Assembly: GCA_028280575.1 (NCBI GenBank)
Contig: JANQLN010000021.1
Span: 35,164-99,163 of the forward strand
DNA from: Clostridia bacterium
GTDB taxonomy: Bacteria; Bacillota; Clostridia; Acetivibrionales; STF1-152
Reading direction: 5' to 3'
DNA: 64,000 nucleotides
The notes below the pieces were generated by a model. That model did no database searches. It saw only the letters and a program-made list of their open reading frames with translations, and had not been told where the DNA came from. The position numbers and the translations under genes were made by a program. Positions 8,400 through 39,960 of the stretch are shown piece by piece (position 1 is the first letter of the stretch; each line of letters opens with the position of its first letter).

Positions 8400-8412
8400 A
8401 AAAATACTCCCT

Positions 8413-8934: not shown

Positions 8935-8936
8935 TT

Positions 8937-21180: not shown

Positions 21181-21209
21181 TTGATTTTAAGGTTTCAGTA
21201 TTGTATAAT
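21181..21209 (+). promoter_or_regulatory. Sigma-A-like promoter for the exopolysaccharide operon
   Basis: TTGATT - 17 nt - TATAAT about 100 nt upstream of the PelF-like ORF. Confidence 0.55.
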
Positions 21210-21312: not shown

Positions 21313-23061
21313 ATGAATAGCAAGTTAAAGGTTATGATGGCTACTGAAGGTACTTACCCCTTTCACCTCGGAGGTGTCAGTAGCTGGTGTGATATGCTTG
21401 TTAATAATTTAAGCAAGAATATTGAATTCACTGTTTTTAGTATAATGATGAATCCTTTTGTTGAGGAAAAGTTTACCCTGCCCTATAATGCAAAGCTTAT
21501 CAAGGTACCCCTGTGGGGAACGGAAGAGCCGAGCGAGCACCTGGAAATACCATTTTCTCAGGTATATATTGCAAAAAAGTACACGGTTGACAAAATAGTA
21601 TCTGAAAAATTTATACCTCTTTTTGATGTATTTATTGAAGAAATCATCAGCCTTGACAAATCTCCGGAAAGGCTGGCAAACGTCATTTTGGAAATGTACA
21701 GGTTTTTTACCGAATACGAATATAAAAAGAGCTTTAAATCAAAGCTTGTATGGGACCATTACAAAAAAATGATACTTGATTATGCCAAGGATAAAAATAA
21801 CAATATGGCCCAGCCTGATATATATTCCCTTATACAGAGCCTGGGTTGGCTGTACAGGTTCTTTAATATAATTAATACTCCCATGCCGGCTGTTCATGTT
21901 TGCCATTCGGCTGCTGCGGCATTTTGCGGAGTGCCCTGTGTTTTGCTGAAATTACTCAACAAAACACCTTACCTGCTCACTGAGCATGGGATTTATTTAA
22001 GAGAACAATACCTTGCATTGTCAAAAAGGAACTATTCTTCCTTTTTAAATACTTTTTTAACAAGGATGATATTATCTATAGTAACATTAAGCTACCATTT
22101 TGCAGACCAGGTTTCGCCGGTATGCAGCTATAATACAAGATGGGAGAAAAAATTTGGTGTGGATAGCAAACGCCTTACCGTAATATATAACGGTGTGGAT
22201 AAAAATGTTTTTACACCGTCTGGCAATGCCAAAAAAAATAAAGTGCCTACGGTAGTTTCCATTGCCAGAATAGATCCTGTAAAGGATATAAAAACTCTGA
22301 TAAAATCTGCTGCCGTCGTAAAACAGCAGCTGCCGGATGTTAAATTTATTGTATATGGCTCAGTAGCAGTTCCTGAATATTTTGAAGAATGTAAAAAGCT
22401 TAAAGATGATCTTAAGCTTGATGATACCTTTATCTTTGGCGGACATCTGAAAAATGTAGCTGCCGGTTATTCTGCCGGAGATGTGATAGTACTGACAAGT
22501 ATAACCGAGGGGTTTCCATATTCGGTTATTGAAGCAATGATGTCGGGCAAGCCCGTTGTAGCTACCGATGTTGGAGGCATAAAGGAAGCCCTTGGAGGCG
22601 GTGGCATAGTAGTACAGCCACAAAACCGGGAGCAGATCGCAAGCGGTATATTAAAGCTTTTGAAAAACCCGTCCCTTAGATTCGAACTGGGACAAGAAGC
22701 AAGAGAGCGTGCGCTGAATTATTTCACAACGGGAAGCTTTCTATCAATGTATTTAAGGAGCTACTTAAAGCTTGCACTCGCTCAAAAAACGGGTGAGAGG
22801 CCTAAAAGTATTACAAGGCTTAAGGAGCAAAAAATATTATTGGAAGACGGCATGGTGCTGTTAAACAGAGGTCATGCCGCGGAGGCAATTAGTAAATTAA
22901 GAATGGCGGCAGATCAATATCCGACTTCACTTTCTGTTCCGGTAATACTTACCCAGATTGCATATGCATATAATATACTGGGTGAATACGACAGGTCGTT
23001 TAATGAACTTGAAAAAGCAAATATTATGAACAGTTTGTTAGGGCAAAGGAGTACGGGATAA
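21313..23061 (+). CDS. PelF-like GT4 glycosyltransferase with C-terminal TPR-like extension
   Basis: N-terminus ATEGTYPFHLGGVSSWCDMLV matches PelF EGTWPY.RGGVSSW; HVCHSAAAAFCGVPCVLL, LLTEHGIYLREQYL, EGFPYSVIEAMMSGKPVVATDVGGIKEAL. Confidence 0.9.
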   Translation: MNSKLKVMMATEGTYPFHLGGVSSWCDMLVNNLSKNIEFTVFSIMMNPFVEEKFTLPYNAKLIKVPLWGTEEPSEHLEIPFSQVYIAKKYTVDKIVSEKFIPLFDVFIEEIISLDKSPERLANVILEMYRFFTEYEYKKSFKSKLVWDHYKKMILDYAKDKNNNMAQPDIYSLIQSLGWLYRFFNIINTPMPAVHVCHSAAAAFCGVPCVLLKLLNKTPYLLTEHGIYLREQYLALSKRNYSSFLNTFLTRMILSIVTLSYHFADQVSPVCSYNTRWEKKFGVDSKRLTVIYNGVDKNVFTPSGNAKKNKVPTVVSIARIDPVKDIKTLIKSAAVVKQQLPDVKFIVYGSVAVPEYFEECKKLKDDLKLDDTFIFGGHLKNVAAGYSAGDVIVLTSITEGFPYSVIEAMMSGKPVVATDVGGIKEALGGGGIVVQPQNREQIASGILKLLKNPSLRFELGQEARERALNYFTTGSFLSMYLRSYLKLALAQKTGERPKSITRLKEQKILLEDGMVLLNRGHAAEAISKLRMAADQYPTSLSVPVILTQIAYAYNILGEYDRSFNELEKANIMNSLLGQRSTG

Positions 23062-23077
23062 GCCAGGAGGTTGCTGC

Positions 23078-23461
23078 ATGGAATTCAAAAGACAAATATT
23101 TGGTTACAGACCTGAAGATGTCTATACTAAATTGGAAAAGATGAACGAAGAACACACTGAATTGGTGAATAAATTAAAATCGGATATGGCACTTGTCAAT
23201 GAGGAAATAGATAATCTTGAAAAGCAAAAAAAGGCTCTGGAACAAGAAATTGAAAATAATGCCCGGGACAGGCTTTTAGAAATTCTTTATGACAAATATA
23301 TGAATGCTGTTAAAAAAGTATATCAAGTAAACAAAATAATTACGACAAATATAGAAGATGAAAAATTTATTTTAAATGGTCTTAAGGAAAGGCAGGAAAA
23401 AATATCCAAGTCGATGGAGGAGTACATGGATAATTTGAAAAGTATAATTGATAGCCATTAA
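23078..23461 (+). CDS. DivIVA-like coiled-coil protein
   Basis: 127 aa; RQIFGYRPEDVYTKLEKM (DivIVA N-terminal GY..eV-like) followed by coiled coil. Confidence 0.55.
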   Translation: MEFKRQIFGYRPEDVYTKLEKMNEEHTELVNKLKSDMALVNEEIDNLEKQKKALEQEIENNARDRLLEILYDKYMNAVKKVYQVNKIITTNIEDEKFILNGLKERQEKISKSMEEYMDNLKSIIDSH

Positions 23462-23477
23462 GGGGGAATATGGCAAA

Positions 23478-24641
23478 ATGGGAAGCAAATATTTCGACCT
23501 CTCCTTTAAAGGTCTTAATATTAAAGAAGTTAATAAATATATTAAAAATATGGAAAATAGTTACAAAGAACAATTGGATTTACTGGACGGAGAGTTGAAA
23601 AGCTTATCCGACAGGCGTACTATGCTCGAAAAAGATATGGAAAAATTAAAAAATAAAAACCCCGGATATAATTTGGAGCTTCTTGAATTTGCGTTAAAAT
23701 ATACCGAAAAGCTTGATCTTCTTTTTAAGGATTTTATAAAAAAGGAGTGTGTTGATTTAAATTCAGCATATAATGATAAATTAGGTAAATATAGGGAAAA
23801 GGCTAAAAATATGGAAAGTGGTATTTACAAGACAAAAGATTATTTACGCCTTTTTATGCAGGACATTGTAAAACTGATTAATAAAAGCAACGATACACCC
23901 CTACCGGAGTCTGATCCTTCAAAATCCAAAGAGAATAAACCAAGTATTCTATTGTTTAAAAAGGGACAGGAGCATTTAAAAGAAAAAAAACAATTGGAAA
24001 AAATAACGGCAGACGGCATTTCCTCATGGAATGGTGAAGGCATGAGGGAGGATAAAACAAAAGAAGCTGATGTATTGAATAAAGATACCATATTGCCGTT
24101 TAACAAAAAGGGTAAAACCCAAACCTCCCCCGGCAAAAGCGATTTTTGGGATATAGATGTTGATGAATTAACCGATGAATCCTTACCTGGAAGCGGGGAC
24201 GGGGGCTTATTGGATGAAAATATCATTTTACCGGGCGTACCTCCGGCTTATAAAGAGCCTGAAGGGAATGATCCACGTGACTGCGAAGAAAGGGATGAAC
24301 CACACACAAACCAAGGAGATGGCAAAGCAGCGGAAAATGAAGAGAAAAACCCGGATACTGAAAATATGGATATGGCTAAAAGTTACAAGGAAGCTGCCGA
24401 TGAAAAAGAAAGACCCGGTATTGTATCAAAATCAAGCAAGGCCCTGGAGATTGAAATTGACGAATTGAGAATTAAATATATAGTAGGTAAATTGGCAGGC
24501 AAGGATATTTTTGACAAGAACGGCAATATTGTGATAAGTGAAGGGAGCAAAATAACGCCGGAAGTTATTCAAAATGCTGAGAATGAAGAAAAGCTTGCCG
24601 AGCTTATTATAAATATGAAAATACCGGAATTTGGTGAATAA
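23478..24641 (+). CDS. DivIVA-like coiled-coil protein with acidic linker and C-terminal PRC-barrel-like tail
   Basis: MGSKYFDLSFKGLNIKEVNKYIKNMENSYKEQLD; charged linker; C-terminal GKDIFDKNGNIVISEGSKITPEVIQNAENEEKLAELIINM; start at MGSK preceded by AGGGGG. Confidence 0.55.
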   Translation: MGSKYFDLSFKGLNIKEVNKYIKNMENSYKEQLDLLDGELKSLSDRRTMLEKDMEKLKNKNPGYNLELLEFALKYTEKLDLLFKDFIKKECVDLNSAYNDKLGKYREKAKNMESGIYKTKDYLRLFMQDIVKLINKSNDTPLPESDPSKSKENKPSILLFKKGQEHLKEKKQLEKITADGISSWNGEGMREDKTKEADVLNKDTILPFNKKGKTQTSPGKSDFWDIDVDELTDESLPGSGDGGLLDENIILPGVPPAYKEPEGNDPRDCEERDEPHTNQGDGKAAENEEKNPDTENMDMAKSYKEAADEKERPGIVSKSSKALEIEIDELRIKYIVGKLAGKDIFDKNGNIVISEGSKITPEVIQNAENEEKLAELIINMKIPEFGE

Positions 24642-24646
24642 AGCTT

Positions 24647-26251
24647 ATGGAAAAAACAATAGCAGCACCAATTAATATTAATAGCAAGGCTTTTGATGCC
24701 CTGGTAGAGGAAATATGCAAAAGGAACAGTTCACCGCAGGACCACTACGAGGTTGCAGCTATTATTGAATCTATAGGCTGGAACGATACTATGATATCCC
24801 AAACTTTCGGGTGCGAAGATGTATTTGACCTGGCCTACGAAGTATATATGTCCATAACGGGCAACACAATCTATACTTCTGCGGCACCAAAACAAAAAAC
24901 AAGCTTTATAATGCTTATATTTATGTTTATCAAAAACTTTCTAAGGGGAGCAATTTTTGCGCTGCCTATGGCAGTATCTGTATTTTCCATGCTGACCCTT
25001 AAATTTTCATTATGGTCATATCTATATCTTTCAACCGAGCTTGCAACCAGTATCGCAATCGGTACAATATTGAGCTTTATGACAGTCGGGGGTTTTACAC
25101 AGGCTATAGCAAGGAAGGGTTTTGCATATGTAAAGCAGGGATACTACCACCTGGCAAAAAGGATTGTAATCAAATTTGTTAAATTCGGATATTTTACATG
25201 CTTTATAATATCCTGCCTGATGCTTTTTACAAATCTTTTCATTGAAGCCTTTCCCTACAGGATGACGATAGTTATAGTATTATTTTACTTTTTCCTGTCA
25301 TCCATCTGGCTTTCCACAACAGTTATGTATATCCTGGAAAAAGAGCTGGCATTTACAGGCCTTACCATACTGGGTATTTTTATGGTTTACATTCTTTTTA
25401 GGGTTAAGAATCTTGATATAATTTTTTCTCAGATAATATCACTTATTGTTGTTTCCATACTGGCATTTTTGTATATTTTATATGTTTTTAAAAAGGCAGG
25501 AAAAAAACAGGAAGAAGGAAAAAAAGCTTCACTTCCCAGGATGTCCATAACACTTTATTCAATACTGCCCTACTTCACATACGGTTTTTTGTATTTTACA
25601 CTCCTTTTTTCAGACCGGCTGACGGCCTGGTCTACAAATAACACGTATATGCCTTATATCATATGGTTCAGAGGTGAATACGAGCTAGGGCTGGATTTCG
25701 CACTTTTACTATTGATAGTTCCAATGGGAATAATTGAAGTGGTTGTCAATAAATTTATGGTAGACATTGAAAAAGGCATGAAAAATTTCATGGGATATGA
25801 ATCCCAGAGAATGAACAACCACTTTCTAAGGCAATACTATCGTATTATTCCGGTAATTTTCCTGTTTTCTGCCGTAAGCGCGGTAATCGTATATTTTGTA
25901 GTTATGAATATAACCCATATACCTGTATTCAACATACCTGTGGATCTAATCCCAAGCCAGGTAACACATTTTGTTTTTATTGTTGCACTTATTTCATATG
26001 CAGTTATTGCAATTGCTCTTATGAATGCCGTGATTCTTTTCTCTTTATCCCAGCCTGATTTTGCCGGACGTTCAACCCTGATTGCACTTATTTCCAATCT
26101 GGTTGTGGGATTTTTGCTGAGCAGGTGGATTGAATACCATTATGCTGCTTTCGGTCTTATGGCAGGGGCAATTGTATTTCTAATCATGACAACAATTATG
26201 GTAATACGTGTATTGAAGGATCTGGATTATTATTTATACGCCGGAGCATAA
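24647..26251 (+). CDS. PelG-like polysaccharide exporter (MATE/MOP-like)
   Basis: 534 aa, about 12 TM; FSDRLTAW..., YELGLDFALLLLIVPMGIIEVVVNKFMVDIEKGM and terminal LKDLDYYLYAGA parallel PelG segments; downstream of the pelF-like gene. Confidence 0.7.
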   Translation: MEKTIAAPININSKAFDALVEEICKRNSSPQDHYEVAAIIESIGWNDTMISQTFGCEDVFDLAYEVYMSITGNTIYTSAAPKQKTSFIMLIFMFIKNFLRGAIFALPMAVSVFSMLTLKFSLWSYLYLSTELATSIAIGTILSFMTVGGFTQAIARKGFAYVKQGYYHLAKRIVIKFVKFGYFTCFIISCLMLFTNLFIEAFPYRMTIVIVLFYFFLSSIWLSTTVMYILEKELAFTGLTILGIFMVYILFRVKNLDIIFSQIISLIVVSILAFLYILYVFKKAGKKQEEGKKASLPRMSITLYSILPYFTYGFLYFTLLFSDRLTAWSTNNTYMPYIIWFRGEYELGLDFALLLLIVPMGIIEVVVNKFMVDIEKGMKNFMGYESQRMNNHFLRQYYRIIPVIFLFSAVSAVIVYFVVMNITHIPVFNIPVDLIPSQVTHFVFIVALISYAVIAIALMNAVILFSLSQPDFAGRSTLIALISNLVVGFLLSRWIEYHYAAFGLMAGAIVFLIMTTIMVIRVLKDLDYYLYAGA

Positions 26252-26259
26252 AGGAGGCT

Positions 26260-28269
26260 ATGATTTTGTACCTGCAATATGATTACAGCAGTTTTACAAG
26301 CCAGGCATCCCAATCGGTCAGGTATATAATGGCTTTTGTTTTCCTGTTTGTAATTGTACCAAGATTAATTTTAACGGGATATAAAAAAATATCTTTTGAA
26401 AATATTGTTTCCTGCTATATAAGGATTGTATTTTTTTATATCCTTACAGGTTATTTGCTCGTAGCCCTCAAGCTCTATGAAGTGCTGGCGATTTTGCTCG
26501 TTCTCCTCGCCTTATATATTCGTAAATATGTATCTGAGAATAATATAGCCAATTTCCTTGAGCTCCTTTCAGTAGTACAATTGAAAATTTTGAACTACGC
26601 AGACGGTTTGAATTCTCCTTTAAATGCATTAAAAAAAACATATTCAAAAATCTTAAAAGGCATTCACACTCTATTTTCATTAATTACAAGCACTCCTCAG
26701 GCAATCGTAAATAATTTATTATTAACGGCAGTCGTTGCCTATTCGGCATGGTTGAGATTTTATGACGCAATGCTTAACGCCGCACCTGCCATGTCCGACG
26801 CATATGTAACCCTTGCATGGATGAAATATATTGACCGCAGGATACTTTTTCATGATGAAATATATCCACAGGGTTTTCACATTTATCTTTCCTTTATACA
26901 AAAATTTTCAACGATAGACCCTCTTTATGTATTGAGGTACACAGGCCCGTTAAATGGCGTACTTATTGCATTAGGCCTTTATTTTACAATATCGGGACTT
27001 ACAAAAAACAAAACTGCAGGAATAATTTCCGCTTTCCTGTACGGTGTCTGCGGTAATTTTATGACCCTGGAATGGGCACGGCAAGCATCTACAAACTCAC
27101 AGGAATTCGCTTTCGTTTTCATTCTCCCCTCACTTTATTTTCTTTATAAATATATAAAGGAAAATAAAAAATCAGACCTTATTACGGCGGGGATTGGCAT
27201 TACAATAACCGGTCTTGTACACACACTGGCTTTCATGCTATGTGGTATTGGAATGGGTGTAATACTTTTTATTGTCCTGACGGAAAAAAACAAAATTAAC
27301 AGATGGAATACCGGTTTGAAAATAATTATTACCGGAATCCTATCGGTCCTTATATCAATGACCCCAATAGGATTAGGCCTGCTTTTAAAGAAAAGGGCAA
27401 ATGAATCCGCAGCAAATTATCTGGCCAGTACGGCAAATGACATCCTTTCCCCTACCCTTATAACATCTGATTACATTGCCCTTTTTGCAATATCCGTCAT
27501 TTTTTTATTTGTATTGTTCAACTTATTCAAGTGGAACAAATTATCCATGGAAAAGTTCATACTGTTATTTTCCATTTCAACTTTTACTCTCCACTATATG
27601 GGGGGGCCGATTACAAAAAGTATAATGGTATCTTCACGTTCGGGTGAATTGTGGGCAATTGTATCAGCAGCTTCAATCGGTACAGGTTTTTATATCCTTA
27701 CAAGGATATTCAAGCATGCGAAAAACAGCAGTCTGATAATTTCGCTTGCAGGCTTTGCAGCCGTGGCATTTGTTGTTTTCTCAATAAATCCCCAACATAT
27801 TGCTCCTTATAAAATGGAATGGAACAGTACGGTGGAGCAATATTTAAGTATAAGCAAGAATTTCAGGCCCACAAACTGGACTATTGTCTCTTCACAGTAT
27901 GAAAGCTATGACCTGGCCTTAGGCAAAGGCTATCACAATTATGTCGACAGCCTGCTGGAAAAAATAGACCCTGAAAAAGACCCAAAGGATAGCTTCGGCA
28001 TTGATTACGGTGAAGATATTTTTATTTACTATGAAAAAGTCATATTCCAGCTTCCCCAAAGCAATCACATATATGACCTTTTAGAAGAGGATTATGAAAG
28101 GAGAAAGCTGGAAAGAGAACAATTAGAGCAATGGATTGCGGACTATAAAAAAAATAATGACAACATGACCGTATATTACGAGGATGAAGTTTTAAAAGTA
28201 TACCATATTAAAATAAAAATGGATGAAGAAGAGAAAAATAAAAGGATATGGGGGTCAGGACGGGTATGA
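26260..28269 (+). CDS. Large multi-pass membrane protein, GT-C-like candidate (paralog of the next ORF)
   Basis: 669 aa, >10 TM; loop SDAYVTLAWMKYIDRRILFHDEIYPQGFH; C-terminal soluble NWTIVSSQYESY...KKNNDNMTVYYEDEVLKVYHIK. Confidence 0.6.
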   Translation: MILYLQYDYSSFTSQASQSVRYIMAFVFLFVIVPRLILTGYKKISFENIVSCYIRIVFFYILTGYLLVALKLYEVLAILLVLLALYIRKYVSENNIANFLELLSVVQLKILNYADGLNSPLNALKKTYSKILKGIHTLFSLITSTPQAIVNNLLLTAVVAYSAWLRFYDAMLNAAPAMSDAYVTLAWMKYIDRRILFHDEIYPQGFHIYLSFIQKFSTIDPLYVLRYTGPLNGVLIALGLYFTISGLTKNKTAGIISAFLYGVCGNFMTLEWARQASTNSQEFAFVFILPSLYFLYKYIKENKKSDLITAGIGITITGLVHTLAFMLCGIGMGVILFIVLTEKNKINRWNTGLKIIITGILSVLISMTPIGLGLLLKKRANESAANYLASTANDILSPTLITSDYIALFAISVIFLFVLFNLFKWNKLSMEKFILLFSISTFTLHYMGGPITKSIMVSSRSGELWAIVSAASIGTGFYILTRIFKHAKNSSLIISLAGFAAVAFVVFSINPQHIAPYKMEWNSTVEQYLSISKNFRPTNWTIVSSQYESYDLALGKGYHNYVDSLLEKIDPEKDPKDSFGIDYGEDIFIYYEKVIFQLPQSNHIYDLLEEDYERRKLEREQLEQWIADYKKNNDNMTVYYEDEVLKVYHIKIKMDEEEKNKRIWGSGRV

Positions 28270-30332
28270 TAGATACGCCAAATACAATATTCATGTTTAT
28301 AAAGGTTATTTTAGCATTTTTTCTTCTATATGCAGTAATTCCCTCCAAAATAATAAAATTTGACAGTGAAGCTGACGGACTTCTTGACAAGCTGTTTATC
28401 AGCTTTGTCCATACCAACTTTTTTATAATAATATTTGTGCATGCCCTATCTTTTCTAAAAATATATGAAACCTTTTCACTGCTGTTCCTGCTGATCGGAA
28501 CCTATCTTTTTCTTACCAGGGTAAAGGGCAGGACTCTTGTCAAAAGGGCCGATACATTTTTGAAAAAAACCGTTATGAGAATACTTGATATGTCCGAAGG
28601 CAGAATAAGCCTAAAAAAACAGGTGTTTCAACTGGCAAAAGAAAAATATGCCCAGCTTGCACTCCGTTTTAAAAAAAGCATATCAAGGCTGTTCACCAAT
28701 CCGTTTAAAGGCATATTAACCGCATTGCTTCTCGCTTTAGGAGCATACATAAGATTTCACCATTCCTTTACGCACCTTTACTTTGGTGCTTCGGATTGTT
28801 ACACCCACCTTTTGTGGACAAAACATATAGGCAACAACAACATATATATGGACAGGATTTATCCTAACGGCTACCATGCAATAATATCTGCTTTGCACAA
28901 GCTCACCCTTATTGACGTATATTATATCGCCAGGTTTCTCGGTCCGTTGGCAGGCTTTATGATTATATTATCACTTCTGTATGTTTTAAAAAGAAATTTT
29001 AAAAACCCTCATATAGTGTGGCTTGCATTGTTAATATATATTGTGGATTTTACCCTTCCCAGCGGAGTATGGCGGCAAATATCTCCCCTGCCCCAGGAGT
29101 ATGCAGCAATCTTCTTTCTTCCGGGCATACATTTTTTTAATATCTTTACGAAGACAATGCAGAAAAAATACTTGCTGCTTACCGCACAATGCCTTGCCCT
29201 CACACTTTTAATCCACCAGTATTCCACCGTATTTATATTGCTGGGATGTTTTATTATTTCCATATTAAACATCAGGTTCATCCTTAAAAAGGAAATTTTC
29301 TTCAAGGTTTTTACATATTTTGGTGCATCAGCTGTTGTAGGTGCCTTACCCTTGCTCATAGGCCGGCTTATGGGACATGAATGGCATGGCTCTTTGCGGT
29401 ATATCATAAATATGGTATCCCTTCCCGGTAAAGATTCTGCAGCCCGTGAAGCTTTCAGCTTCAGTGAACCCAAAAAAACCCTGGTAGTTTTTTTACTCTG
29501 TGGTGCTCTTCTTACAATTTTAATAGTAAAAAGCTACATTCAAAAAAGCAGGCTTGCCTCAAATATTAATACAAAAACCATAACCGGATTTTTACTGACT
29601 TCCCTGGCAGTATATATGATGTACAGGGCTAAAATCTTTGGACTGCCCAGGATAATGGATACTTCAAGAGTTGGTGTGTTTATGACTATGATTGTAGTAA
29701 TCATAATCGCTTCCTCCCTCTATTTCTTTGATTTGTTCCCGGCAAACCGAAAAATCAAATACATGCTTAGAACAGTTGTATGTGCAGCGGCGGCAGTATT
29801 ATTCATATTACCGTTAAGATTAAATCCTCCCAGCGGGCTAAGATATGAGTATGATGGCGGAATTTTGGCATATTTAAAAATAAATAGGGAAGATTTTCCC
29901 TCCCAGAATTGGACCATAATTTCACCGGTTGAACAGTACCAGCTGGTTATGAATTACGGCTGGCATACCGAACTTTGGGAATTTATATATGCTATTGAAG
30001 ACAAGCATCCCCACAAAGAAGACAATGTGCTCCAGATTCCAACGGAATATGTATTTATATACGTGGAGAAAAAACCGCTAAAAATAGGATATACAAGTAC
30101 TCCCATGGAACCAGTCAGCAGAGAAGATGCCGAAAAAGACCTGCCCCCGATACCTTCTAATTTATCATATTTTTACTATAATTACGAATCAAGAAGAATT
30201 CTCCAGTCAAAAGCATATTACTGGGCAGAGGATTATATGAAAAACAATGATAACATGGAGTTATATTATGAAGATAACGATATGAAAGTATATTTGCTAA
30301 AGCAAGTTCCTAAAAAATTCATTAAGTTTTAA
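28266..30332 (+). CDS. Large multi-pass membrane protein, GT-C-like candidate (tandem paralog); start may be ATG 28266 or upstream alternative 28248
   Basis: SDCYTHLLWTKHIGNNNIYMDRIYPNGYHAI; C-terminal NWTIISPVEQYQ...MKNNDNMELYYEDNDMKVYLLK shares motifs with the preceding ORF. Confidence 0.6.
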   Translation: MIDTPNTIFMFIKVILAFFLLYAVIPSKIIKFDSEADGLLDKLFISFVHTNFFIIIFVHALSFLKIYETFSLLFLLIGTYLFLTRVKGRTLVKRADTFLKKTVMRILDMSEGRISLKKQVFQLAKEKYAQLALRFKKSISRLFTNPFKGILTALLLALGAYIRFHHSFTHLYFGASDCYTHLLWTKHIGNNNIYMDRIYPNGYHAIISALHKLTLIDVYYIARFLGPLAGFMIILSLLYVLKRNFKNPHIVWLALLIYIVDFTLPSGVWRQISPLPQEYAAIFFLPGIHFFNIFTKTMQKKYLLLTAQCLALTLLIHQYSTVFILLGCFIISILNIRFILKKEIFFKVFTYFGASAVVGALPLLIGRLMGHEWHGSLRYIINMVSLPGKDSAAREAFSFSEPKKTLVVFLLCGALLTILIVKSYIQKSRLASNINTKTITGFLLTSLAVYMMYRAKIFGLPRIMDTSRVGVFMTMIVVIIIASSLYFFDLFPANRKIKYMLRTVVCAAAAVLFILPLRLNPPSGLRYEYDGGILAYLKINREDFPSQNWTIISPVEQYQLVMNYGWHTELWEFIYAIEDKHPHKEDNVLQIPTEYVFIYVEKKPLKIGYTSTPMEPVSREDAEKDLPPIPSNLSYFYYNYESRRILQSKAYYWAEDYMKNNDNMELYYEDNDMKVYLLKQVPKKFIKF

Positions 30333-30343
30333 GGAGTGGTATA

Positions 30344-31543
30344 ATGAATATATTAATCATAAGCTCGAGTACACCTGTTAGGGGCGGTGTTGCCACATAC
30401 ATGGAGATTTTGCTTAAAACCTTAAAGGATAAAGGGTATAATGCCCAAATGCTGAATATTTTAAGCAGCAAATCAAATAGCTTTTCCCTTCTTGGAAATA
30501 ATATGCTAAAATTAACTAGATTTTTGTCAGGATTTGACACTCTGTTTAAATTAATGCTTTTTATATCAAGACTTATAATTATCATCAGGACAAGAATAAA
30601 ATGTATAAACAAAAACATTGATATAATACACACACAAGACATTAATTCCTGCAACGCGGTGTACAGGTTCTGCAGAAAAAAGCATATCCGTCTTATCTTA
30701 ACCATACATGGGTATTTATCAAGAGGAGATTCTTCACTTCGTGCAATAAAAAATGAAAGCAAAATAGGTAAATATGTTTCAATTCAAGAAATCAAAGCCT
30801 TTAATAGAAGTGATTTCATTATAACTGTTTCCAAACAGTCCATGAATAGGGTAATTAAATATGTAAATAAAAAAAAGGTAGCGGTTTTCAGGAATTTCAT
30901 AGATGGCTGTCTATTTCACCCTCTTGCTTTAACAAAAAAATCGGCTTTAAAAAAGCAGTTTAATTATTCCCACGATGATTTTATACTATTATATGCGGGC
31001 AGGCTGTCATCTGCCAAAGGTACAATTTATATAATTGAAGCCTTAAACAGGCTGGATGAAAATTACAGGGTTAAACTTGTAATAGCAGGTGACGGGCCGG
31101 AATTTGAAAACCTTAAAAAGCTAAGCCTTTCCCTGTCATTATCACACAGGATTAGTTTTCTCGGTGATATTGCCAGGGAAAGGCTTATAACTCTTTACCA
31201 GATTTCGGATGGGTTTATAATGTCTTCCGTATCGGATGAAGGTGCGGCAGAAGGTGCTCCAATGGCTCTGCTTGAAGCAATGGCATGTGGTTTGCCAATC
31301 ATTACCACAAAAGCCGGAGGTATAAATGAAATAGTTTCTAATAAAAATATATGCTTAATAACTGAAGAAAGAAACAGTGATTCAATAGCAGGGGCAATAA
31401 AACGGCTCTATGATGACCCTTTACTGAGGTCAGAGCTTTCAGCCAATGCATTGAAGGAAGTAGATTTAAATTATTCAAATCATAAAATGATAGATTTTCT
31501 CTTAAAAGCATATAAAGGAGTAAAAACAATTGATAAATCCTAG
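30344..31543 (+). CDS. GT4 family glycosyltransferase
   Basis: SSSTPVRGGVATYMEILL, LLYAGRLSSAKGTIYIIEAL, EGAPMALLEAMACGLPIITTKAGGINEIV. Confidence 0.93.
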   Translation: MNILIISSSTPVRGGVATYMEILLKTLKDKGYNAQMLNILSSKSNSFSLLGNNMLKLTRFLSGFDTLFKLMLFISRLIIIIRTRIKCINKNIDIIHTQDINSCNAVYRFCRKKHIRLILTIHGYLSRGDSSLRAIKNESKIGKYVSIQEIKAFNRSDFIITVSKQSMNRVIKYVNKKKVAVFRNFIDGCLFHPLALTKKSALKKQFNYSHDDFILLYAGRLSSAKGTIYIIEALNRLDENYRVKLVIAGDGPEFENLKKLSLSLSLSHRISFLGDIARERLITLYQISDGFIMSSVSDEGAAEGAPMALLEAMACGLPIITTKAGGINEIVSNKNICLITEERNSDSIAGAIKRLYDDPLLRSELSANALKEVDLNYSNHKMIDFLLKAYKGVKTIDKS

Positions 31544-32702
31544 AGTTTTAATAACCAACGGACAGCTAAGAAAATCACTTGCATCGGCAAGGTCTTTAGG
31601 GGAAAAAGGCATCCCGGTATTTTCCGGAGAAGTGACACGTTTTAATATTACGGCATTTTCACGATACTGCGTTAAAAGCTTTATATATCCGGACCCGTCT
31701 GATAAACCCGGTCACTTTTATCAATGGCTTTTAAATTTTGTCAGGGATAATCCCGGTACATTACTATTGCCCATGGATGACAGCGTACTGGAAATTGTTT
31801 TCAAGCACAGGATTGAGCTTAAAAAATACTGCATTCTGTCCCTTCCTCCTTTATCAAGCTATGAAATAGCTTCAGACAAAGGATTATCTGCCTTAGCTGC
31901 CATTGATTGCGGTTTGGACTGTCCCGGTACTTATATACCCTCAAGCATTGACGATGCATTTAATCATGCCAAAGCATCAGAATACCCTCTGGTTATCAAA
32001 CCCAGAAAAAGCTCGGGCTCAAGAGGAATAAGAATAGTAAAGGACCGCAATGAATTTAAAATAAACTATGAAAAAATTGCCAGGATATACGGACTCCCTG
32101 TTATACAGGAGTTTATTCCCACCGGTGAAAGGTATGATGTATGTCTTTTTTACAACAGCAGCAACGACTTGAAAGCCTCCTTTGTCCAAAAGGAATTGAG
32201 ACATTTTCCTCCGGATATAGGCCCTAGTACCTTGCAGGAAAGTATATCCATGCCCGGATTAAGTCTTAAAGCTTTAAAGCTTATGGAAAAATTGCCATGG
32301 GAAGGTGTAGTTGAAATTGAGTTTATGAAGGATCCAAGGGACGGCAAATTTAAATTTATGGAAATAAACCCCAGGTTTTGGAATTCGCTTCACCTTTCTA
32401 TTATTTCAGGCGTGGACTTCCCGGTCATGTTTTATAACAACGCAATTGGCATAAATGTAGAAAATATCCGGACTTATAAAAAGGGTATTTTGTGCAGATG
32501 GCTTCTGCCCGGTGACATCCTCCGTTTTATTTTTGATAAAAAAGGTTTTAGCCCAAGCTTTAAGCGGGTAAAAATAAAGGGTAGAAAAATATATGACGAT
32601 ATATTGTCAATAAGAGATTTGGGCCCGTTACTTGGCTTTATACTCTCATTTACAAGATACGTTTTTGATATTAGAATGTGGCGTTTTATCTTTAAAAGGT
32701 AA
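31530..32702 (+). CDS. ATP-grasp domain protein
   Basis: YPLVIKPRKSSGSRGIRIV, VIQEFIPTGERYDV, EIEFMKDPRDGKFKFMEINPRFWNS. Confidence 0.9.
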   Translation: MINPRVLITNGQLRKSLASARSLGEKGIPVFSGEVTRFNITAFSRYCVKSFIYPDPSDKPGHFYQWLLNFVRDNPGTLLLPMDDSVLEIVFKHRIELKKYCILSLPPLSSYEIASDKGLSALAAIDCGLDCPGTYIPSSIDDAFNHAKASEYPLVIKPRKSSGSRGIRIVKDRNEFKINYEKIARIYGLPVIQEFIPTGERYDVCLFYNSSNDLKASFVQKELRHFPPDIGPSTLQESISMPGLSLKALKLMEKLPWEGVVEIEFMKDPRDGKFKFMEINPRFWNSLHLSIISGVDFPVMFYNNAIGINVENIRTYKKGILCRWLLPGDILRFIFDKKGFSPSFKRVKIKGRKIYDDILSIRDLGPLLGFILSFTRYVFDIRMWRFIFKR

Positions 32703-32743
32703 ATAGTACTACAGAGATTTTTGCTTTGGCATTAGTGGAGATT

Positions 32744-33592
32744 ATGATGAAAAACATACTTGCAATAGATATTGAGGACTGGTATCATACCAGGGACTTT
32801 AACTTTGAAATTGAAAGATGGCCGGATTTTGAAGAAAGGATTGAGAATAATACCCAAAATATTTTGGACTTACTGTCAAAATATGATGTAAAAGCCACCT
32901 TTTTTGTATTGGGCTATGTTGCGCAAAACCATCCGGAACTAATTAAATCCATTTCAGACAATGGTCATGAAATAGGTTCACACGGATTCTGGCATAAAAT
33001 GGTCAACGAGCAATCCAGGGATGCATTCAAAAACGATATTGTGACGTCGAAAAAAATACTGGAGAGCATTACCGGTAAAAAAGTTGATAAATTTAGAGCT
33101 TCCACATGGTCTGTTACCAGGGAGAATCTATGGACTTTTGATATAATCAGGGAAGCAGGCTTTTTATACGATTCAAGTATGCAGCCCTTTAAAACTCCTC
33201 TATCCGGAACAACAAATATACCCTTGTTCCCTTTCAAGCCTGTGATAAAAGGCAAAAAGACTAACATTATTGAAGTTCCGCCAACTGTTTTAAAGGTCGG
33301 AAAAATACTTTTACCATTTTCCGGCGGCTTATATTTCAGACTGATGCCCTACTGTTTTATCAAAACCGCCTTAAAAAAAATTAACAGGAAGGCGCCTGGT
33401 ATGATATATCTCCATCCATGGGAATTTGATACGGGCCAGCCGGTTCTTAAGGTACCTCTGCATATAAAGGCGGCGCATTATTATGGAATAAAGCATACAT
33501 ATAAGAAGCTTGAAAAGATGCTTCAAGCTTTTGATTTCGCTCCAATGGGGGAGGTTATTAATGATTTTAACATACAGGATTTCAGTTTTTAA
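32744..33592 (+). CDS. Polysaccharide deacetylase (CE4; DUF3473/PEP-CTERM-locus type), no obvious signal peptide
   Basis: AIDIEDWYHTRDF, KATFFVLGYVAQNHPELIKSISDNGHEIGSHGFWH, IYLHPWEFD. Confidence 0.92.
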   Translation: MMKNILAIDIEDWYHTRDFNFEIERWPDFEERIENNTQNILDLLSKYDVKATFFVLGYVAQNHPELIKSISDNGHEIGSHGFWHKMVNEQSRDAFKNDIVTSKKILESITGKKVDKFRASTWSVTRENLWTFDIIREAGFLYDSSMQPFKTPLSGTTNIPLFPFKPVIKGKKTNIIEVPPTVLKVGKILLPFSGGLYFRLMPYCFIKTALKKINRKAPGMIYLHPWEFDTGQPVLKVPLHIKAAHYYGIKHTYKKLEKMLQAFDFAPMGEVINDFNIQDFSF

Positions 33593-33678
33593 TGCCATTA
33601 TACCAATGTATTGGCAGCATTATATTGTTGCAAAGCACTGAAAAATGCTCTATAATGGGTTTTGAGGGGGGTGGGATT

Positions 33679-34395
33679 ATGTCAAAATCATTGATATTGA
33701 TACCTGCATATAATGAAGCGGGCATTATCTGCGATGTACTGGACGAAATAAAAGGCTTGATTAAAGACATCGACATACTTGTCATTGATGACGGTTCAAC
33801 CGATAATACTTCATACCTGGCAAGTAAAAAAGGCGCCCTGGTAATTAAACTCCCTTATAACATTGGATATGGCGGTGCATTACAAACAGGTTTTAAATAT
33901 GCCGTTGGAAATAGCTATGAGTATATAATACAGTTTGACGGAGACGGACAGCACGACCCCAATAATATACGTGAAATTTTAGCCATACTGGAAGAAAAAA
34001 GCTATGATATTGTAATCGGTTCAAGGTTTTTGAGTACATCATATAAGTCAGGATTTATGAAGATGATTGCCATAAAATTATTCAGGTTAATAATAAAGCT
34101 TTCCACAGGAACAAAAATAACGGATCCTACTTCAGGCCTGCAGGGGCTGACGAGAAAGGTTTTTTCCTATTATGCCATGATGGGGAATTATCCCATAGAT
34201 TTCCCGGATGCAGATATACTAATAACCATGTTAAGATTTAATTACAGAATTAAGGAAATACCTGCCAACATAAGAAAAAGGCAGTGCGGTAAAAGCATGC
34301 ATTCAGGCATGAAACCATTATTTTATTTTATGAAAATTATGTTAAGTATTTTTATTGTTCTTATACGTATGAAAATTGCTGATGGAGGTAAATAA
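33679..34395 (+). CDS. GT2 family glycosyltransferase
   Basis: LILIPAYNEAG, VIDDGSTDNT, IIQFDGDGQHDPNNI; start at MSKSL after GAGGGGGG. Confidence 0.94.
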   Translation: MSKSLILIPAYNEAGIICDVLDEIKGLIKDIDILVIDDGSTDNTSYLASKKGALVIKLPYNIGYGGALQTGFKYAVGNSYEYIIQFDGDGQHDPNNIREILAILEEKSYDIVIGSRFLSTSYKSGFMKMIAIKLFRLIIKLSTGTKITDPTSGLQGLTRKVFSYYAMMGNYPIDFPDADILITMLRFNYRIKEIPANIRKRQCGKSMHSGMKPLFYFMKIMLSIFIVLIRMKIADGGK

Positions 34396-34396
34396 T

Positions 34397-34792
34397 ATGA
34401 ATGTTATTCTTGAAGGATTTATTCTGCTTTGCGGGTTATTTTTTGTATTCCTTATCATAAGACTGCTGGTAAAAAAGAAAATAAATGAAACAAACTCCTT
34501 AATATGGCTAATCGGATCGATAATCATACTGGTTCTTTCCGTAATGCCTGAAACTCTCCATATATTGTCCGGTTTAGTAGGCATAGACTATCCGCCCTCG
34601 CTTTTGTTTTTGCTGTCAATTTTGGTTCTGCTTTTTATTGTATTCAATCAATCTATACAAATATCTGCATTAAGCAGTCAGCTTAAGGAATTAACACAGT
34701 ATATTTCTATATTGCAAATGGATAAGGAATACAATGAAAGAGAAAAGAACAAGCTTTGCAATGCTGCCGGCGATAAAACACAGGTGGTTTAA
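34397..34792 (+). CDS. DUF2304 family membrane protein
   Basis: MNVILEGFILLCGLFFVFLIIRLLVKKKINETNSLIWLIGSIIILVLSVMPETL; downstream of a GT2 as is usual; GGAGG before ATG 34397. Confidence 0.85.
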   Translation: MNVILEGFILLCGLFFVFLIIRLLVKKKINETNSLIWLIGSIIILVLSVMPETLHILSGLVGIDYPPSLLFLLSILVLLFIVFNQSIQISALSSQLKELTQYISILQMDKEYNEREKNKLCNAAGDKTQVV

Positions 34793-36693
34793 TGCAAAAT
34801 AAAATTTTAGATAAATTATTGTATTATGTTGAATATGTGTCTGATTTATATGCAAATTTAAACACTGAGTCAAAAACTATCTTCGGTGTACTTTTTTTAA
34901 TTGCATTTATCTTTTCTATTACAGGCTTCTTTCTGCTGAAAAAAAATAAAAGCTACAAAGCAGGAAAAAATATTATTGATAAACTCTTAAACGAAACTTA
35001 CTATTCCAATGGCAGTAATGCATCAATTAACACCTTTCTAAAGATAATTTCTGAGGTTATACCTTCACAAACATATTCGTTTTACGTAAAGTCGGCAAAC
35101 AACAATTATATTTTAAGAGCACTGAAAGACGCCGCATCGGATAAGGGTGGTATAACTCCTTCATATGACGGGCTTCCCCCGTACAAGGGGGAAATATATG
35201 CTCCTAAGCAAAATGTGGATTTTCAAAGCGTACCTTCCGGTCCGGAGATTATTGAAGAGGGAAATTTAAAGATAATTTCAATTCCTACGAGGACAAAAAA
35301 ATGCCTGCTTAGAATCGGACCCGTAAAGGGTAAACAAAAGGGACTTATTAATACATTGGCAGGCCTGGTAAAGGCATATGAAAATTACATTGAAGCAATC
35401 ATAGAAAACGATTTCTTAAAAAGCCGCCATGAGGAACTGGAAAAAAGAATATCAGGCTCTAAAAATATTTCAAATATGATATCCGATTATAAGGTTGTTG
35501 TTTCAAATCTTCTTAATTCGGCTATAAATGCTGTTAGTGGAAAAGGTGGTGCTTTTCTCCTTTATAAAAAAAGCGGGGTTGAGGTGGTAGCCTCCTCTGG
35601 AATAAAGGATAATGCAGCTAAAATAATAGAAAATAATTCTGATTTCACTGATTATATTAAAGACTGCACCGGTAATAACAACATGGCTGTTTTGGCTTTT
35701 AAACAGCTAAAATCTCTGAATATTCCCGATTTTTTCAATGTTCTCGAAGTAAACAGGCTTTTTGTTTTCAAATCCTATTCGGATATTGGTCCCGGTATAC
35801 TCCTTTTATGGCAAAACAATGGTCAAATAAAAGAATACAGGATTACCGCGCTTTTAATAATATCAAGAATAATATGTAATACAATCAACCATAATTTAAA
35901 GTTTAAGCAATTGACCATATCCTCTGTCGACATGTTAAAATCCCTTTCGCAGGTAATGGATAACCTGACACATTATACAATTGGGAGATCAGAGCTGACA
36001 TCAAGATTTTCATTGATAATCGGTAATGAGATGGGTCTTGATAAAAAGACATTATATGACCTTTCCATGGCTGCTTTTTTAAGTAATATAGGTATTATAG
36101 GCATTTCGGAAGATATATTCTTAAAGCAGGGCAAATATGCCAAAACCGAATATGAATTAATGAAGCTTCACTGCGACATTGGGGCATCAATTGTTGAATC
36201 CACTACAGGTAATAAAAATGCATCAAAGTATATTCTGCAGCATCATGAAAGAATTGACGGAAACGGATATCCAAACGGGCTAAAAGGCGGGGAGATAGAA
36301 TTGCCCGCGCGTATTATTTCCGTCGTACAGACCTTCCTCGCCAAAATAAAGGGGCGTGAAGACAGAGAACCTCTCAGCTTTGAAACAGCTTTGGATTTAA
36401 TAAAATCCTCCTCTTCCTCCCAGCTCGACAAAGATGTAGTGGAAACACTCACACAATGGTTTAATAAAAAACGGGAACCCATGCTCAATGTTAAAAAATC
36501 CCTGGGGCCTTGCTGGGAAATGCTGTGTATTCCAGAAGAAATATGTTCTTCATGCCCCGCTTACAGGAATACTGAAATAAACTGCTGGGAAAATGCAAAA
36601 AACAATTGCAAAGGGCATGGTGACAATTGTGAAACCTGCTATGTCCATACGGAATACTTATCCAGAATAAAACTAAGGAGTATCAGTCTTTGA
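34792..36693 (+). CDS. Membrane protein with degenerate HD-GYP domain and Cys-rich C-terminal tail
   Basis: One TM near N-term; HD-GYP-like LHCDIGASIVE...HHERIDGNGYPNGLKGGEIELPARII, but HDIGK replaced by SNIGI; C-term CWEMLCIPEEICSSCPAYRNTEINCWENAKNNC...C..C. Confidence 0.8.
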   Translation: MQNKILDKLLYYVEYVSDLYANLNTESKTIFGVLFLIAFIFSITGFFLLKKNKSYKAGKNIIDKLLNETYYSNGSNASINTFLKIISEVIPSQTYSFYVKSANNNYILRALKDAASDKGGITPSYDGLPPYKGEIYAPKQNVDFQSVPSGPEIIEEGNLKIISIPTRTKKCLLRIGPVKGKQKGLINTLAGLVKAYENYIEAIIENDFLKSRHEELEKRISGSKNISNMISDYKVVVSNLLNSAINAVSGKGGAFLLYKKSGVEVVASSGIKDNAAKIIENNSDFTDYIKDCTGNNNMAVLAFKQLKSLNIPDFFNVLEVNRLFVFKSYSDIGPGILLLWQNNGQIKEYRITALLIISRIICNTINHNLKFKQLTISSVDMLKSLSQVMDNLTHYTIGRSELTSRFSLIIGNEMGLDKKTLYDLSMAAFLSNIGIIGISEDIFLKQGKYAKTEYELMKLHCDIGASIVESTTGNKNASKYILQHHERIDGNGYPNGLKGGEIELPARIISVVQTFLAKIKGREDREPLSFETALDLIKSSSSSQLDKDVVETLTQWFNKKREPMLNVKKSLGPCWEMLCIPEEICSSCPAYRNTEINCWENAKNNCKGHGDNCETCYVHTEYLSRIKLRSISL

Positions 36694-37427
36694 GAAAACA
36701 GACCCTTTCGGAAGCAAAAAATTTTGCCGTATATTATGGCAGGGATAATATTGATAGGCTAAAGGGCTTTGATATTCTGGTTGTAGAATCTGCTGCCTGG
36801 AATAAGAACAGTCTTTCTATGCTTAAACATAAAAACAAGCTTGTAATTGCATACCTTAGTATGATTGAAGTCTCTGTGGATTCGTCCTTTTTTGGACTTT
36901 TAAATGAAGAAGACTTTATAAAACACAATAAAAAAATATTAGTAAACGAAGAATACAACACCTGCCTTGCAAGCCTAAAATCTGATAAATGGAAGGCAAT
37001 ATTATGTGAGCAATTCCGAAATCTTTTAAATGAAGGATATGACGGTCTTTTTCTTGATACACTTGGTGATATTATACATTTTGAAATGGAATCCCGGTTA
37101 AAAAACGAACTTATAATGGAAGCTTCATCATTTCTCTTGAAATTAAAAACTCTCTTTCCTGACCATATTCTTATACAAAACAACGGTCTGGAAATTGCTA
37201 ATTATACATCTTTGTACCTTGATGCAATCTGTTGGGAAAATCCCCCTTTGTCGGGCAAAAAACTGACCAGGTGGAGTAAGAGCATTGTAAAATACCTTTC
37301 AGGGCTTCAAAAGGAAAGGGATATGAAAATCCTTGCTCTGACTGAGAATTATACTGTGGATATTGTAAAAAGATTTGCCGAAAAAAAGGGCTTTCTCCAT
37401 TATAATGCTCCAAAGGGTTATATTTAG
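36690..37427 (+). CDS. GH114-like endo-alpha-1,4-polygalactosaminidase-type protein (PelA N-domain-like), TTG start, no signal peptide
   Basis: FAVYYGRDNIDRLKGFDILVVES, KLVIAYLSMIEV, EGYDGLFLDTLGDI, DHILIQNNGLEI; AGGAG RBS upstream of TTG. Confidence 0.8.
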   Translation: MRKQTLSEAKNFAVYYGRDNIDRLKGFDILVVESAAWNKNSLSMLKHKNKLVIAYLSMIEVSVDSSFFGLLNEEDFIKHNKKILVNEEYNTCLASLKSDKWKAILCEQFRNLLNEGYDGLFLDTLGDIIHFEMESRLKNELIMEASSFLLKLKTLFPDHILIQNNGLEIANYTSLYLDAICWENPPLSGKKLTRWSKSIVKYLSGLQKERDMKILALTENYTVDIVKRFAEKKGFLHYNAPKGYI

Positions 37428-37512
37428 TGTGTTATTGATTTGTTTTGTTGAAAAATCATCCGGTTAAGGGTATACTACAGTCATACTTGTTTAAAATCGG
37501 GCGTTCTGGGGA

Positions 37513-38685
37513 GTGAACTCGAATATGCAGAAACTGCTCTACCTTGGAATATTTTTGTTTGACAATAAATTGGAAACGGGTGTGGTAAACAAAATGAAAG
37601 GACAGGTAAGAGCCTTTAAAAAAAGAGGCTTTGATGTTTATTATACTTCTATATACAATGATTCCATGTTTATAGAAAGCAATACTGACCATGTACGAAT
37701 TGCTAAAAATCCCAAAGACCCATATGCAATCAGGTATTTTTTATATAAGGGAGTAAAAAAGTGGTTAAAAAATAATCCTATGGATATTTGCTATATACGG
37801 TATGCCTTTTGCGATCCCATATTTCTTTGCTTAATACGCTATATGAAATACCGGGGAATAAAAATAATAATAGAAGTGCCGACTTACCCCTACGGAGAAG
37901 AAATGAACTGCTGGCCTTTTTTAAGAAGATATGCCGGCAAGGCTGTCGAATATATCTTAAACAAAAGGCTAAAAAAATATATATCTCTTGTTACCACATA
38001 TACATCTTCCGAATTGATTTTTGGTGTAAAAACCGTTAAGATAGAAAATGGTGTTGATGTGGAAAAAATCAAACCATGGCGTCACAGCCCAAAAGATTCT
38101 GATATTCACATTATTGCCGTATCCTCAATGCACTCATGGCACGGCTATGACAGGGCAATCAAAGGAATGGCCGGGTATTATTCCCGCCCGGTAAAAACAA
38201 AGGTTTTCCTGCACCTGGTTGGAGACGGAGTAATGAGACGCGAATGGGAAAAACTGTCCCAAAAACTCATTGTAGACAAATATGTAATATTCCATGGACC
38301 CCTGGTAAATGAAGAGCTTGATTTGCTTTTTGATAAGTGTGATATTGCCCTGGGATGCCTTGGAATTTACAGGAAAAAACTAACCCAGCCTTCCACACTT
38401 AAAAACAAGGAATATTGTGCAAGAGGTATTCCTTTTGCCTTTGCCTGTGAAGAAAAATATCTTCATCCAGGACTGGAATTTGTAAAAATTCTGCCTGATA
38501 ATGATGAATTGATAAATATGGATGAATTGATTGAATTCTGCAATAGTATGAAAGCACTTAATAATATATCCCATGCTATGAGGGATTATGCCAATAAACA
38601 TTTTTTATGGGATACACAGATTGAAAGAATATTCACAGCTTTATCAGGCAGTCTTATACCTGTTAATAAGCCCGGAGAGCGATAA
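37513..38685 (+). CDS. GT4-like glycosyltransferase
   Basis: TVKIENGVDVEKIKPW, HIIAVSSMHSWHGYDRAIKGM, FLHLVGDG, LVNEELDLLFDKCDIALGCLG. Confidence 0.85.
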   Translation: MNSNMQKLLYLGIFLFDNKLETGVVNKMKGQVRAFKKRGFDVYYTSIYNDSMFIESNTDHVRIAKNPKDPYAIRYFLYKGVKKWLKNNPMDICYIRYAFCDPIFLCLIRYMKYRGIKIIIEVPTYPYGEEMNCWPFLRRYAGKAVEYILNKRLKKYISLVTTYTSSELIFGVKTVKIENGVDVEKIKPWRHSPKDSDIHIIAVSSMHSWHGYDRAIKGMAGYYSRPVKTKVFLHLVGDGVMRREWEKLSQKLIVDKYVIFHGPLVNEELDLLFDKCDIALGCLGIYRKKLTQPSTLKNKEYCARGIPFAFACEEKYLHPGLEFVKILPDNDELINMDELIEFCNSMKALNNISHAMRDYANKHFLWDTQIERIFTALSGSLIPVNKPGER

Positions 38686-39960
38686 ATGACCGGATATGTG
38701 AAGCTTATCAAAAAAAAGTTATTTACTTCATATATAAAAAATATGGTTACCTTAACTCTTGGTACCCTTATAGCCCAGTGTGCAATAGTCATAGCCGCTC
38801 CGGCACTAACACGTCTTTATTCTCCGGAGCAGTTAGGTATGTATACCCTTATTTTTACCATAGCTTCCATTATAGGACCATTGGTTAACGGACGCTATGA
38901 TATGTCCATAGTATCTGCCTCCCATGAGAGGGAATCCCACGCCGTTATGAAGGCAAGCATGCTTGTATGCTTCTTTATAAGCGCCCTTGCAGGCATTATT
39001 ATAACATGCTTGATACTTTTTGACTCTCCCATTCTTGTGAATATAAATTCAAGGATAATTTATGTTTTTCCTTTATTACTGCTGTTTGGATTCATAAATG
39101 CTATAACAAGCTATAATAATAGAAATAAGGAATATAAGCTGATTGCAAAATTTTCGGCAGTAAGAACGCTAACGCTTTTGTTTGGACAGGTTCTTTTCGG
39201 AGTTTTCAAGGCCGGTATAACAGGCCTGCTTGTCAGCCAGCTGGCCTCTTTTTTTATAAGCCTTTTGTACCAGCTTAAAAATACTGCGATTAATTACAAA
39301 AGCGTATTATCTATAAGCTTCAAAGAAGTATCTGCCGTTTTAAGAAAATTTCGAAACCAGCCCTTTTATTCTACTCCTGCACTACTGCTTAACTCTTTAT
39401 CATATTCAATAATACCCTTTTTAATAAGTACTCTTTACGGGCTTAAAGATGTGGGATATTACTCCCTTTCATTTACCTTGCTCGGCATGCCTATACAGTT
39501 ATTCAGCGTCAATGTGGCAAAAGTTTTTTTTGAAAAAGCAAACCGTGAAAAAAAAGCTTGCGGTAATTTTTATAAGACCTTTAAAACTACATTATTCTTG
39601 CTGTTATTTATATCCATACCTTTTTTTACCTTTTTAATGCTGTTTTCAAGAAATATTTTCAATATCGTATTCGGCCCAGGCTGGGAAAGGGCGGGCCTTT
39701 TTGTGGAAATTTTATCTCCAATGTACACATTCAGGTTTATTTCAGCTTCACTTGCAGCCGGCCTTATTATTGGGCACAGGCAAAAAATAGAATTTATTAT
39801 CCAGTCCGTCTTTTTTATTGAGGCTATCGGAGCTTTTTTGCTTTCTAAACAACTGTTTTTTTCTATAGAACAATTTTTAACCATAATAAGTATTCTTTTT
39901 GCAGTCAGCTATATAGTTTTAATTTTTGCTATCTTTCTTGCCAGCAAAAGTAAAGATTAA
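38686..39960 (+). CDS. Oligosaccharide flippase family protein (Wzx/MOP)
   Basis: 424 aa, ~12 TM; ITRLYSPEQLG-like APALTRLYSPEQLGMYTLIFTIASIIGPLVNGRYDMSIV. Confidence 0.92.
   Translation: MTGYVKLIKKKLFTSYIKNMVTLTLGTLIAQCAIVIAAPALTRLYSPEQLGMYTLIFTIASIIGPLVNGRYDMSIVSASHERESHAVMKASMLVCFFISALAGIIITCLILFDSPILVNINSRIIYVFPLLLLFGFINAITSYNNRNKEYKLIAKFSAVRTLTLLFGQVLFGVFKAGITGLLVSQLASFFISLLYQLKNTAINYKSVLSISFKEVSAVLRKFRNQPFYSTPALLLNSLSYSIIPFLISTLYGLKDVGYYSLSFTLLGMPIQLFSVNVAKVFFEKANREKKACGNFYKTFKTTLFLLLFISIPFFTFLMLFSRNIFNIVFGPGWERAGLFVEILSPMYTFRFISASLAAGLIIGHRQKIEFIIQSVFFIEAIGAFLLSKQLFFSIEQFLTIISILFAVSYIVLIFAIFLASKSKD

Follow-up and report, generated by a model that had tools for sequence, protein, structure and literature searches.

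A candidate sister system to Pel, with a putative degenerate HD-GYP regulator, in a Clostridia genome

Pel is a widespread biofilm polymer whose control in Gram-positive bacteria rests on PelD. Epimerase, CotH and DUF4956 genes are among the kinds of gene reported to lie beside Gram-positive pel loci (PMC7112168), and in a survey of 41 Paenibacillus strains pel was considered uncommon in the genus, P. mucilaginosus excepted (PMC9956331). Receptors for cyclic dimeric guanosine monophosphate (c-di-GMP) include DvhD, a protein of solved structure in which the HD motif reads SQ and which binds c-di-GMP without cleaving it (PMC13090378). The DNA considered here is a 64,000-nucleotide stretch of contig JANQLN010000021.1 from a Clostridia bacterium (hereafter the window), which carries at 21313-39960 a run of genes for a PelF-like synthase, a PelG-like exporter and a putative regulator of the HD-GYP type. 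The part at 21313-37427 is probably a c-di-GMP-controlled, synthase-dependent exopolysaccharide system forming a sister group to Pel; homologies, the GT-C fold of a confident structure model, a conserved gene order and a correlated loss of metal ligands support this reading. A literature search limited to open-licence papers turned up no account of the cluster. A zetaproteobacterial stalk cluster considered as a described relative was set aside, its source paper containing neither PelF nor PelG.

The run comprises 15 open reading frames, all on the + strand and separated by gaps of no more than 85 bp, in keeping with the long co-directional arrangement proposed in an earlier, sequence-only reading of this DNA. 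Its first gene (21313-23061) encodes a GT4 polymerase of 582 aa with a weakly matched, TPR-like C-terminal extension. The protein scores 160.5 bits against the NCBI PelF equivalog NF038011 (cut-off 100) and matches DUF3492 at E 4e-38, which bears out its earlier naming as PelF-like. With NF038011, scores in a draw of 300 genomes from the phylum are 328-405 bits for canonical PelF proteins and approximately 131-161 bits for a new type that includes the window protein. In a tree of 48 sequences, for which five other GT4 proteins served as a small and long-branched outgroup, the new group (28 rows) was separated from the canonical group with support of 100/99 for each, and the two together were split from the five other GT4 proteins at 99/96. 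Judged from this tree, the new group is the nearest to canonical PelF, yet the window protein and its relatives lie outside the canonical clade. The two groups stand side by side rather than as ancestor and descendant, and hence the description of the locus as Pel-derived but rewired is upheld for a Pel relationship and for the rewiring (by the PelF tree, by the PelG and PelA-hydrolase homologies, and by CotH and DUF4956 companions), but not for derivation. Around the EX7E region, most canonical PelF proteins read SISEGQPLxxLE and most of the new type read S[IV][ST]E[AG]FPYSV[VI]EAMM; because the motif differs, donor specificity may differ as well. One related locus outside the Bacillota (L042, an actinomycete metagenome-assembled genome) has a tandem PelF-like pair at 7270-9947 ahead of its PelG-like gene, and the row L042:7270 sits on a long branch of uncertain placement beside the canonical group.

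The PelG-like membrane protein (24647-26251; 534 aa) reaches 13.7 bits with PF16933, under the cut-off of 29, which another protein of the family (G016, locus L011 = L040) passes with 52 bits. Profile-profile alignment (hhalign) with canonical PelG spanned 400 columns at E 2.5e-4 and a probability of 43%, and comparison of the protein with solved structures by sequence gave no meaningful match. The exporter assignment therefore survives as a remote PelG homology that by itself is not strong. The last gene of the core (36690-37427) encodes a hydrolase of the GH114/GH166 type, for which the resemblance to the PelA N-terminal domain proved sharper than claimed: among solved structures, the hydrolase domain of PelA is the best match to its family profile (E 9e-25), well ahead of any other natural enzyme (1e-7 at best), and D123 and E183 are invariant in the alignment. 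The CE4 deacetylase (32726-33592) was likewise confirmed, scoring 281 bits against a cut-off of 276 with TIGR03006, the model for the XrtA-system deacetylase. Judged from N-terminal sequences and hydrophobicity, no signal peptide is evident in either the hydrolase or the deacetylase.

With the PelG-like profile as sole query, a scan of the GTDB genomes identified 23 related loci, in Paenibacillus, Tumebacillus, Desulfosporosinus, Peptococcaceae and others. Taking best matches at E 1e-3, and with the caveat that some loci end at contig edges and a few matches may be unrelated family members, PelF was present in 23/23, GT-C membrane proteins matching the window protein M669 in 21/23, GT2 in 19/23, a long coiled-coil protein in 18/23, HD-GYP in 17/23, a PelA-type hydrolase in 16/23, ATP-grasp in 15/23, DUF2304 in 14/23 and CE4 in 12/23. 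The gene set occurs mostly in the same order, so that both content and synteny are shared by most of the 23 loci. The ATP-grasp ligase (31530-32702), the GT2, the DUF2304 protein, two further GT4 enzymes and a Wzx named in the sequence-only reading were all recovered by domain searches; its boundary of 21313-39960 was nevertheless too wide. A GT4 gene at 30344-31543 and another at 37513-38685, each identified by Pfam, were found in 0/23 relatives, and the first of these and the GT4/Wzx pair at 37513-39960 are missing from nearly all of them; the conserved core is 21313-37427. A single-sequence search matched the PelG-like protein in 2/292 genomes of the class, within which the cluster is uncommon. 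Epimerase-like genes lie upstream of PelF in two relatives (L020 and L032), and CotH and DUF4956 genes lie beside the cluster in a Paenibacillus relative (L023).

The gene at 34792-36693, which was the key gene absent from the sequence-only reading, encodes a membrane-anchored protein in which sequence and fold identify sensor domains of the GAF type together with HD-GYP, and which ends in a Cys-rich tail. The HD-GYP protein PmGH binds its metals through E185, H189, H221, D222, H250, H276, H277 and D305, contacts c-di-GMP through Tyr285 of the GYP motif, R314 and K317, and lost its activity when the HD or HH residues were changed to alanine (PMC4159591). When mapped onto PmGH by eye, the window protein has R399, S431, N432, H460, H484, H485 and Q513 at the positions of H189, H221, D222, H250, H276, H277 and D305, and it retains both the GYP motif (492-494) and Arg at the positions of R314 and K317 (522 and 525). 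These last features are invariant among the aligned members, all of which also retain the equivalents of H250, H276 and H277. Ten of the 14 aligned proteins are degenerate: the motif Asp has become Asn and the late Asp has become Gln in 10/10, the motif His has become Ser in nine and Ala in one, and another His is usually lost as well (the H189 position, Arg in the window). The remaining four (L027, L032, L034 and L035) have the tested ligands intact. As the degenerate type, including the window protein, forms one clade (100/99), the ligands were probably lost in a single event and the state kept thereafter. The Cys-rich tail (36570-36690; CxxxxCxxC...CxxC) is kept in most relatives, is missing in L026 and L029, and is possibly a metal or Fe-S site.

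DvhD ranks with the best structural matches to the window HD-GYP model, and by analogy with it we infer that the GAF/pseudo-HD-GYP protein would serve as c-di-GMP receptor in place of PelD. Nine GGDEF matches in the genome make c-di-GMP plausible as the messenger. The earlier statement that no PelD is recognizable thus stands in so far as none was found above cut-off, but it overlooked a protein placed to do the job of PelD. No match over cut-off to either PF16963 (PelD) or the PF16933 model (PelG) exists in this 99%-complete genome, and so no canonical pel operon was found elsewhere in it; PF16963 also misses the PelD of B. cereus (PMC7112168), and hence the absence of PelD is unproven by that model alone. 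Pfam detected no PelD among 12 cluster genes, and no PelE turned up in Pfam and NCBIfam scans of the operon, for which no PelE model was run.

Two giant membrane proteins were noted previously, and their identity can now be sharpened. Compared with solved structures by sequence, they gave no meaningful match, and the fold search then pointed to GT-C. The structure model of the first (M669; 669 aa, 26260-28269; mean pLDDT 86.8, pTM 0.87) was matched by Foldseek to STT3, PglB, DPY19, Pmt4 and ArnT, with probability 1.00 to STT3, PglB, DPY19 and ArnT, and on the strength of this model M669 is a GT-C-type glycosyltransferase. Alignments identify the second (M694; 694 aa, 28248-30332) as its paralog. 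Asp180, a candidate for the acidic residue that GT-C enzymes carry in the region of the first external loop, is nearly invariant among the aligned proteins. The GT2 (33592-34395) has its nearest PDB matches among undecaprenyl-phosphate sugar transferases (best E 2.4e-12), and adjoining it is the small DUF2304 membrane protein (34376-34792; PF10066, 84 bits). The simplest reading of GT2, DUF2304 and GT-C together would be a lipid-phosphate-sugar decoration module. Two related loci (L032 and L034) have two adjacent GT-C genes downstream of the PelG-like gene, and in L032 two GT2/DUF2304 pairs flank the cluster, arrangements which suggest that the decoration module duplicates independently. All five relatives examined for a flippase have a MurJ-like one adjoining or near CE4; the window instead has a Wzx-type protein at the end of the run (38686-39960; PF13440), which perhaps stands in for it.

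Taken together, the homologies suggest a working scheme. PelF would polymerize a nucleotide sugar taken from the cytosol, and export of the chain across the single membrane would fall to the PelG-like protein; on binding c-di-GMP, the GAF/HD-GYP protein would gate both, a role that belongs to PelD in canonical systems. Fold and gene partnership predict that GT2 and DUF2304 produce a sugar linked to lipid phosphate, on which the GT-C proteins would draw at the outer side of the membrane for decorating or attaching the polymer. The PelA-type hydrolase and CE4 may trim or modify the chain or its precursor, probably in the cytosol, and the coiled-coil proteins might position the machine. That such loci constitute a hybrid class, patchily distributed in the Firmicutes and combining a Pel-sister synthase and exporter with a c-di-GMP receptor that arose independently from a phosphodiesterase (pseudo-HD-GYP) and not from a cyclase (pseudo-GGDEF), and with lipid-phosphate-dependent GT-C decoration of the exported chain, is put forward tentatively, as somewhat short of an even prospect.

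Several observations weigh against a c-di-GMP-controlled sister of Pel. The homology of the window exporter to PelG is remote and below the Pfam cut-off; the hydrolase and deacetylase are without visible signal peptides, unlike the periplasmic PelA of P. aeruginosa; the non-canonical donor-loop motif of PelF means that the sugar may not be GalNAc, which in alpha-1,4-linked, partially deacetylated form makes up the canonical product; and the presence of a flippase gene, whether Wzx or MurJ-like, points to lipid-linked assembly as well. Moreover, because four related loci keep HD-GYP proteins with intact ligands, the receptor role cannot hold in the same form across all loci. The strongest competing account, which we consider unlikely though a serious contender, is that the product is a surface glycan unrelated to Pel (a capsule, or a polymer of the spore surface or cell wall), for which homologs of PelF and PelG were recruited to act on a different sugar and in which lipid-linked assembly is dominant. 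The flippase genes in most relatives examined and the Wzx of the window fit such a polymer, as do the affinity of the GT-C proteins to oligosaccharyltransferases, the changed donor motif and the XrtA-type CE4; it accounts poorly for a PelA-hydrolase-type protein in 16 of the 23 loci, for a PelF group that adjoins canonical PelF, and for a c-di-GMP-type regulator next to the cluster genes. With lower probability, the HD-GYP protein would not be a receptor but a working phosphodiesterase that reduces the local level of c-di-GMP, as the four loci with all tested metal ligands and the universal retention of GYP and the H250, H276 and H277 equivalents might imply; yet in the clade of the window the HD pair and the late Asp disappeared jointly, a condition that has persisted since, and alanine at either HD or HH is sufficient to kill activity in PmGH (PMC4159591). 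Least probable is that the GT-C proteins act as oligosaccharyltransferases that move the PelF/PelG polymer onto surface proteins, for despite STT3 and PglB being the best structural matches, DPY19, Pmt4 and ArnT match too, no conserved acceptor protein was seen in the clusters, and the GT2/DUF2304 pair suggests monosaccharide phospholipid donors.

Should the Pel-sister reading be true, the same kind of synthase would have come under c-di-GMP control twice, by way of unrelated disabled enzymes, one a former cyclase and the other a former phosphodiesterase, and Pel-like machinery would be extended to several Paenibacillus and Tumebacillus species. As the related loci hold both intact and degenerate HD-GYP proteins, the conversion of enzyme to receptor is directly testable.

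Between PelF and the PelG-like gene lie two coiled-coil proteins, earlier described as DivIVA-like. The coiled coils are present, but the likeness to DivIVA is weak, lying at the N-terminus of the short protein (23078-23461; PF05103 E 0.03, below cut-off), similar genes to which occupy the same place in eight relatives. The long protein (23448-24641) changes rapidly except for a conserved C-terminal domain (24435-24641, +) with the motif VGKLAGxD...LIVNM, which bears a weak resemblance to part of RNA polymerase beta (PDB E 9e-4). Upstream of pelF, the proposed sigma-70-like promoter TTGATT-17-TATAAT is present at 21181-21209 (+; 10/12 in a pattern scan), but sites of this type are not enriched over shuffled sequence (92 found against 76.7 +/- 10.4 expected) and the site is not conserved in relatives. 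No promoter or sporulation-sigma site ahead of pelF was consistent across the relatives, and no Rfam riboswitch reached the gathering threshold in the window and 21 related loci; the genome carries Spo0A. Just past the operon, at 40972-42626 on the - strand, adjacent genes encode a hexapeptide acetyltransferase and a GFO/IDH/MocA oxidoreductase, which resemble a WbpD/WbpB-type sugar-nucleotide pair and might supply a diacetamido sugar. Further on, lasso-peptide-like maturation genes occupy 44221-48259 (+), perhaps together with 42913-43923 (+); they include a lasso B2 domain protein (NF033537, 37.8 bits; cut-off 33), an HprK-related kinase, an NTP_transf_5 nucleotidyltransferase and an ABC ATPase, with a radical SAM/SPASM protein adjoining.

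Compared with known systems, the side-by-side GT2, DUF2304 and GT-C enzymes of the window resemble glycosylation modules of GT2, small membrane protein and GT-C such as CsbB/GtcA/YfhO and GtrABS, differing from these in an apparent link to a PelF/PelG-type polymer rather than to teichoic acid or O-antigen. Its CE4, above the TIGR03006 cut-off, recalls the XrtA/PEP-CTERM exopolysaccharide clusters, from which the locus departs in that no exosortase was recognized among the operon genes scanned. DvhD of Desulfovibrio vulgaris is likewise a membrane-anchored sensor that has lost the HD motif (SQ in DvhD, SN in the window), but it has PAS and dCache domains, controls adhesin cleavage and has also lost the HH pair, which the window protein keeps (PMC13090378). 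With pelABCDEFG of P. aeruginosa the locus shares PelF, PelG and PelA-hydrolase homology; hydrolase and deacetylase domains are there joined in a single periplasmic PelA, whereas the window has separate genes for these without visible signal peptides, and PelB and PelC are not expected in a Gram-positive organism. Relative to pelDEADAFG of B. cereus ATCC 10987, the window is without a PelD above cut-off, PelE was unrecognized in general scans of the operon that included no PelE model, the regulator carries HD-GYP in place of GGDEF, and PelF belongs to another clade and differs in its donor-loop motif; GT-C, GT2/DUF2304, ATP-grasp and a flippase are additional to that operon. Common to both are a PelF synthase, a PelG-like exporter, a deacetylase and a membrane-anchored, GAF-bearing regulator of the c-di-GMP type, and PelA-hydrolase, epimerase, CotH and DUF4956 companions are found in the window cluster or its relatives (PMC7112168).

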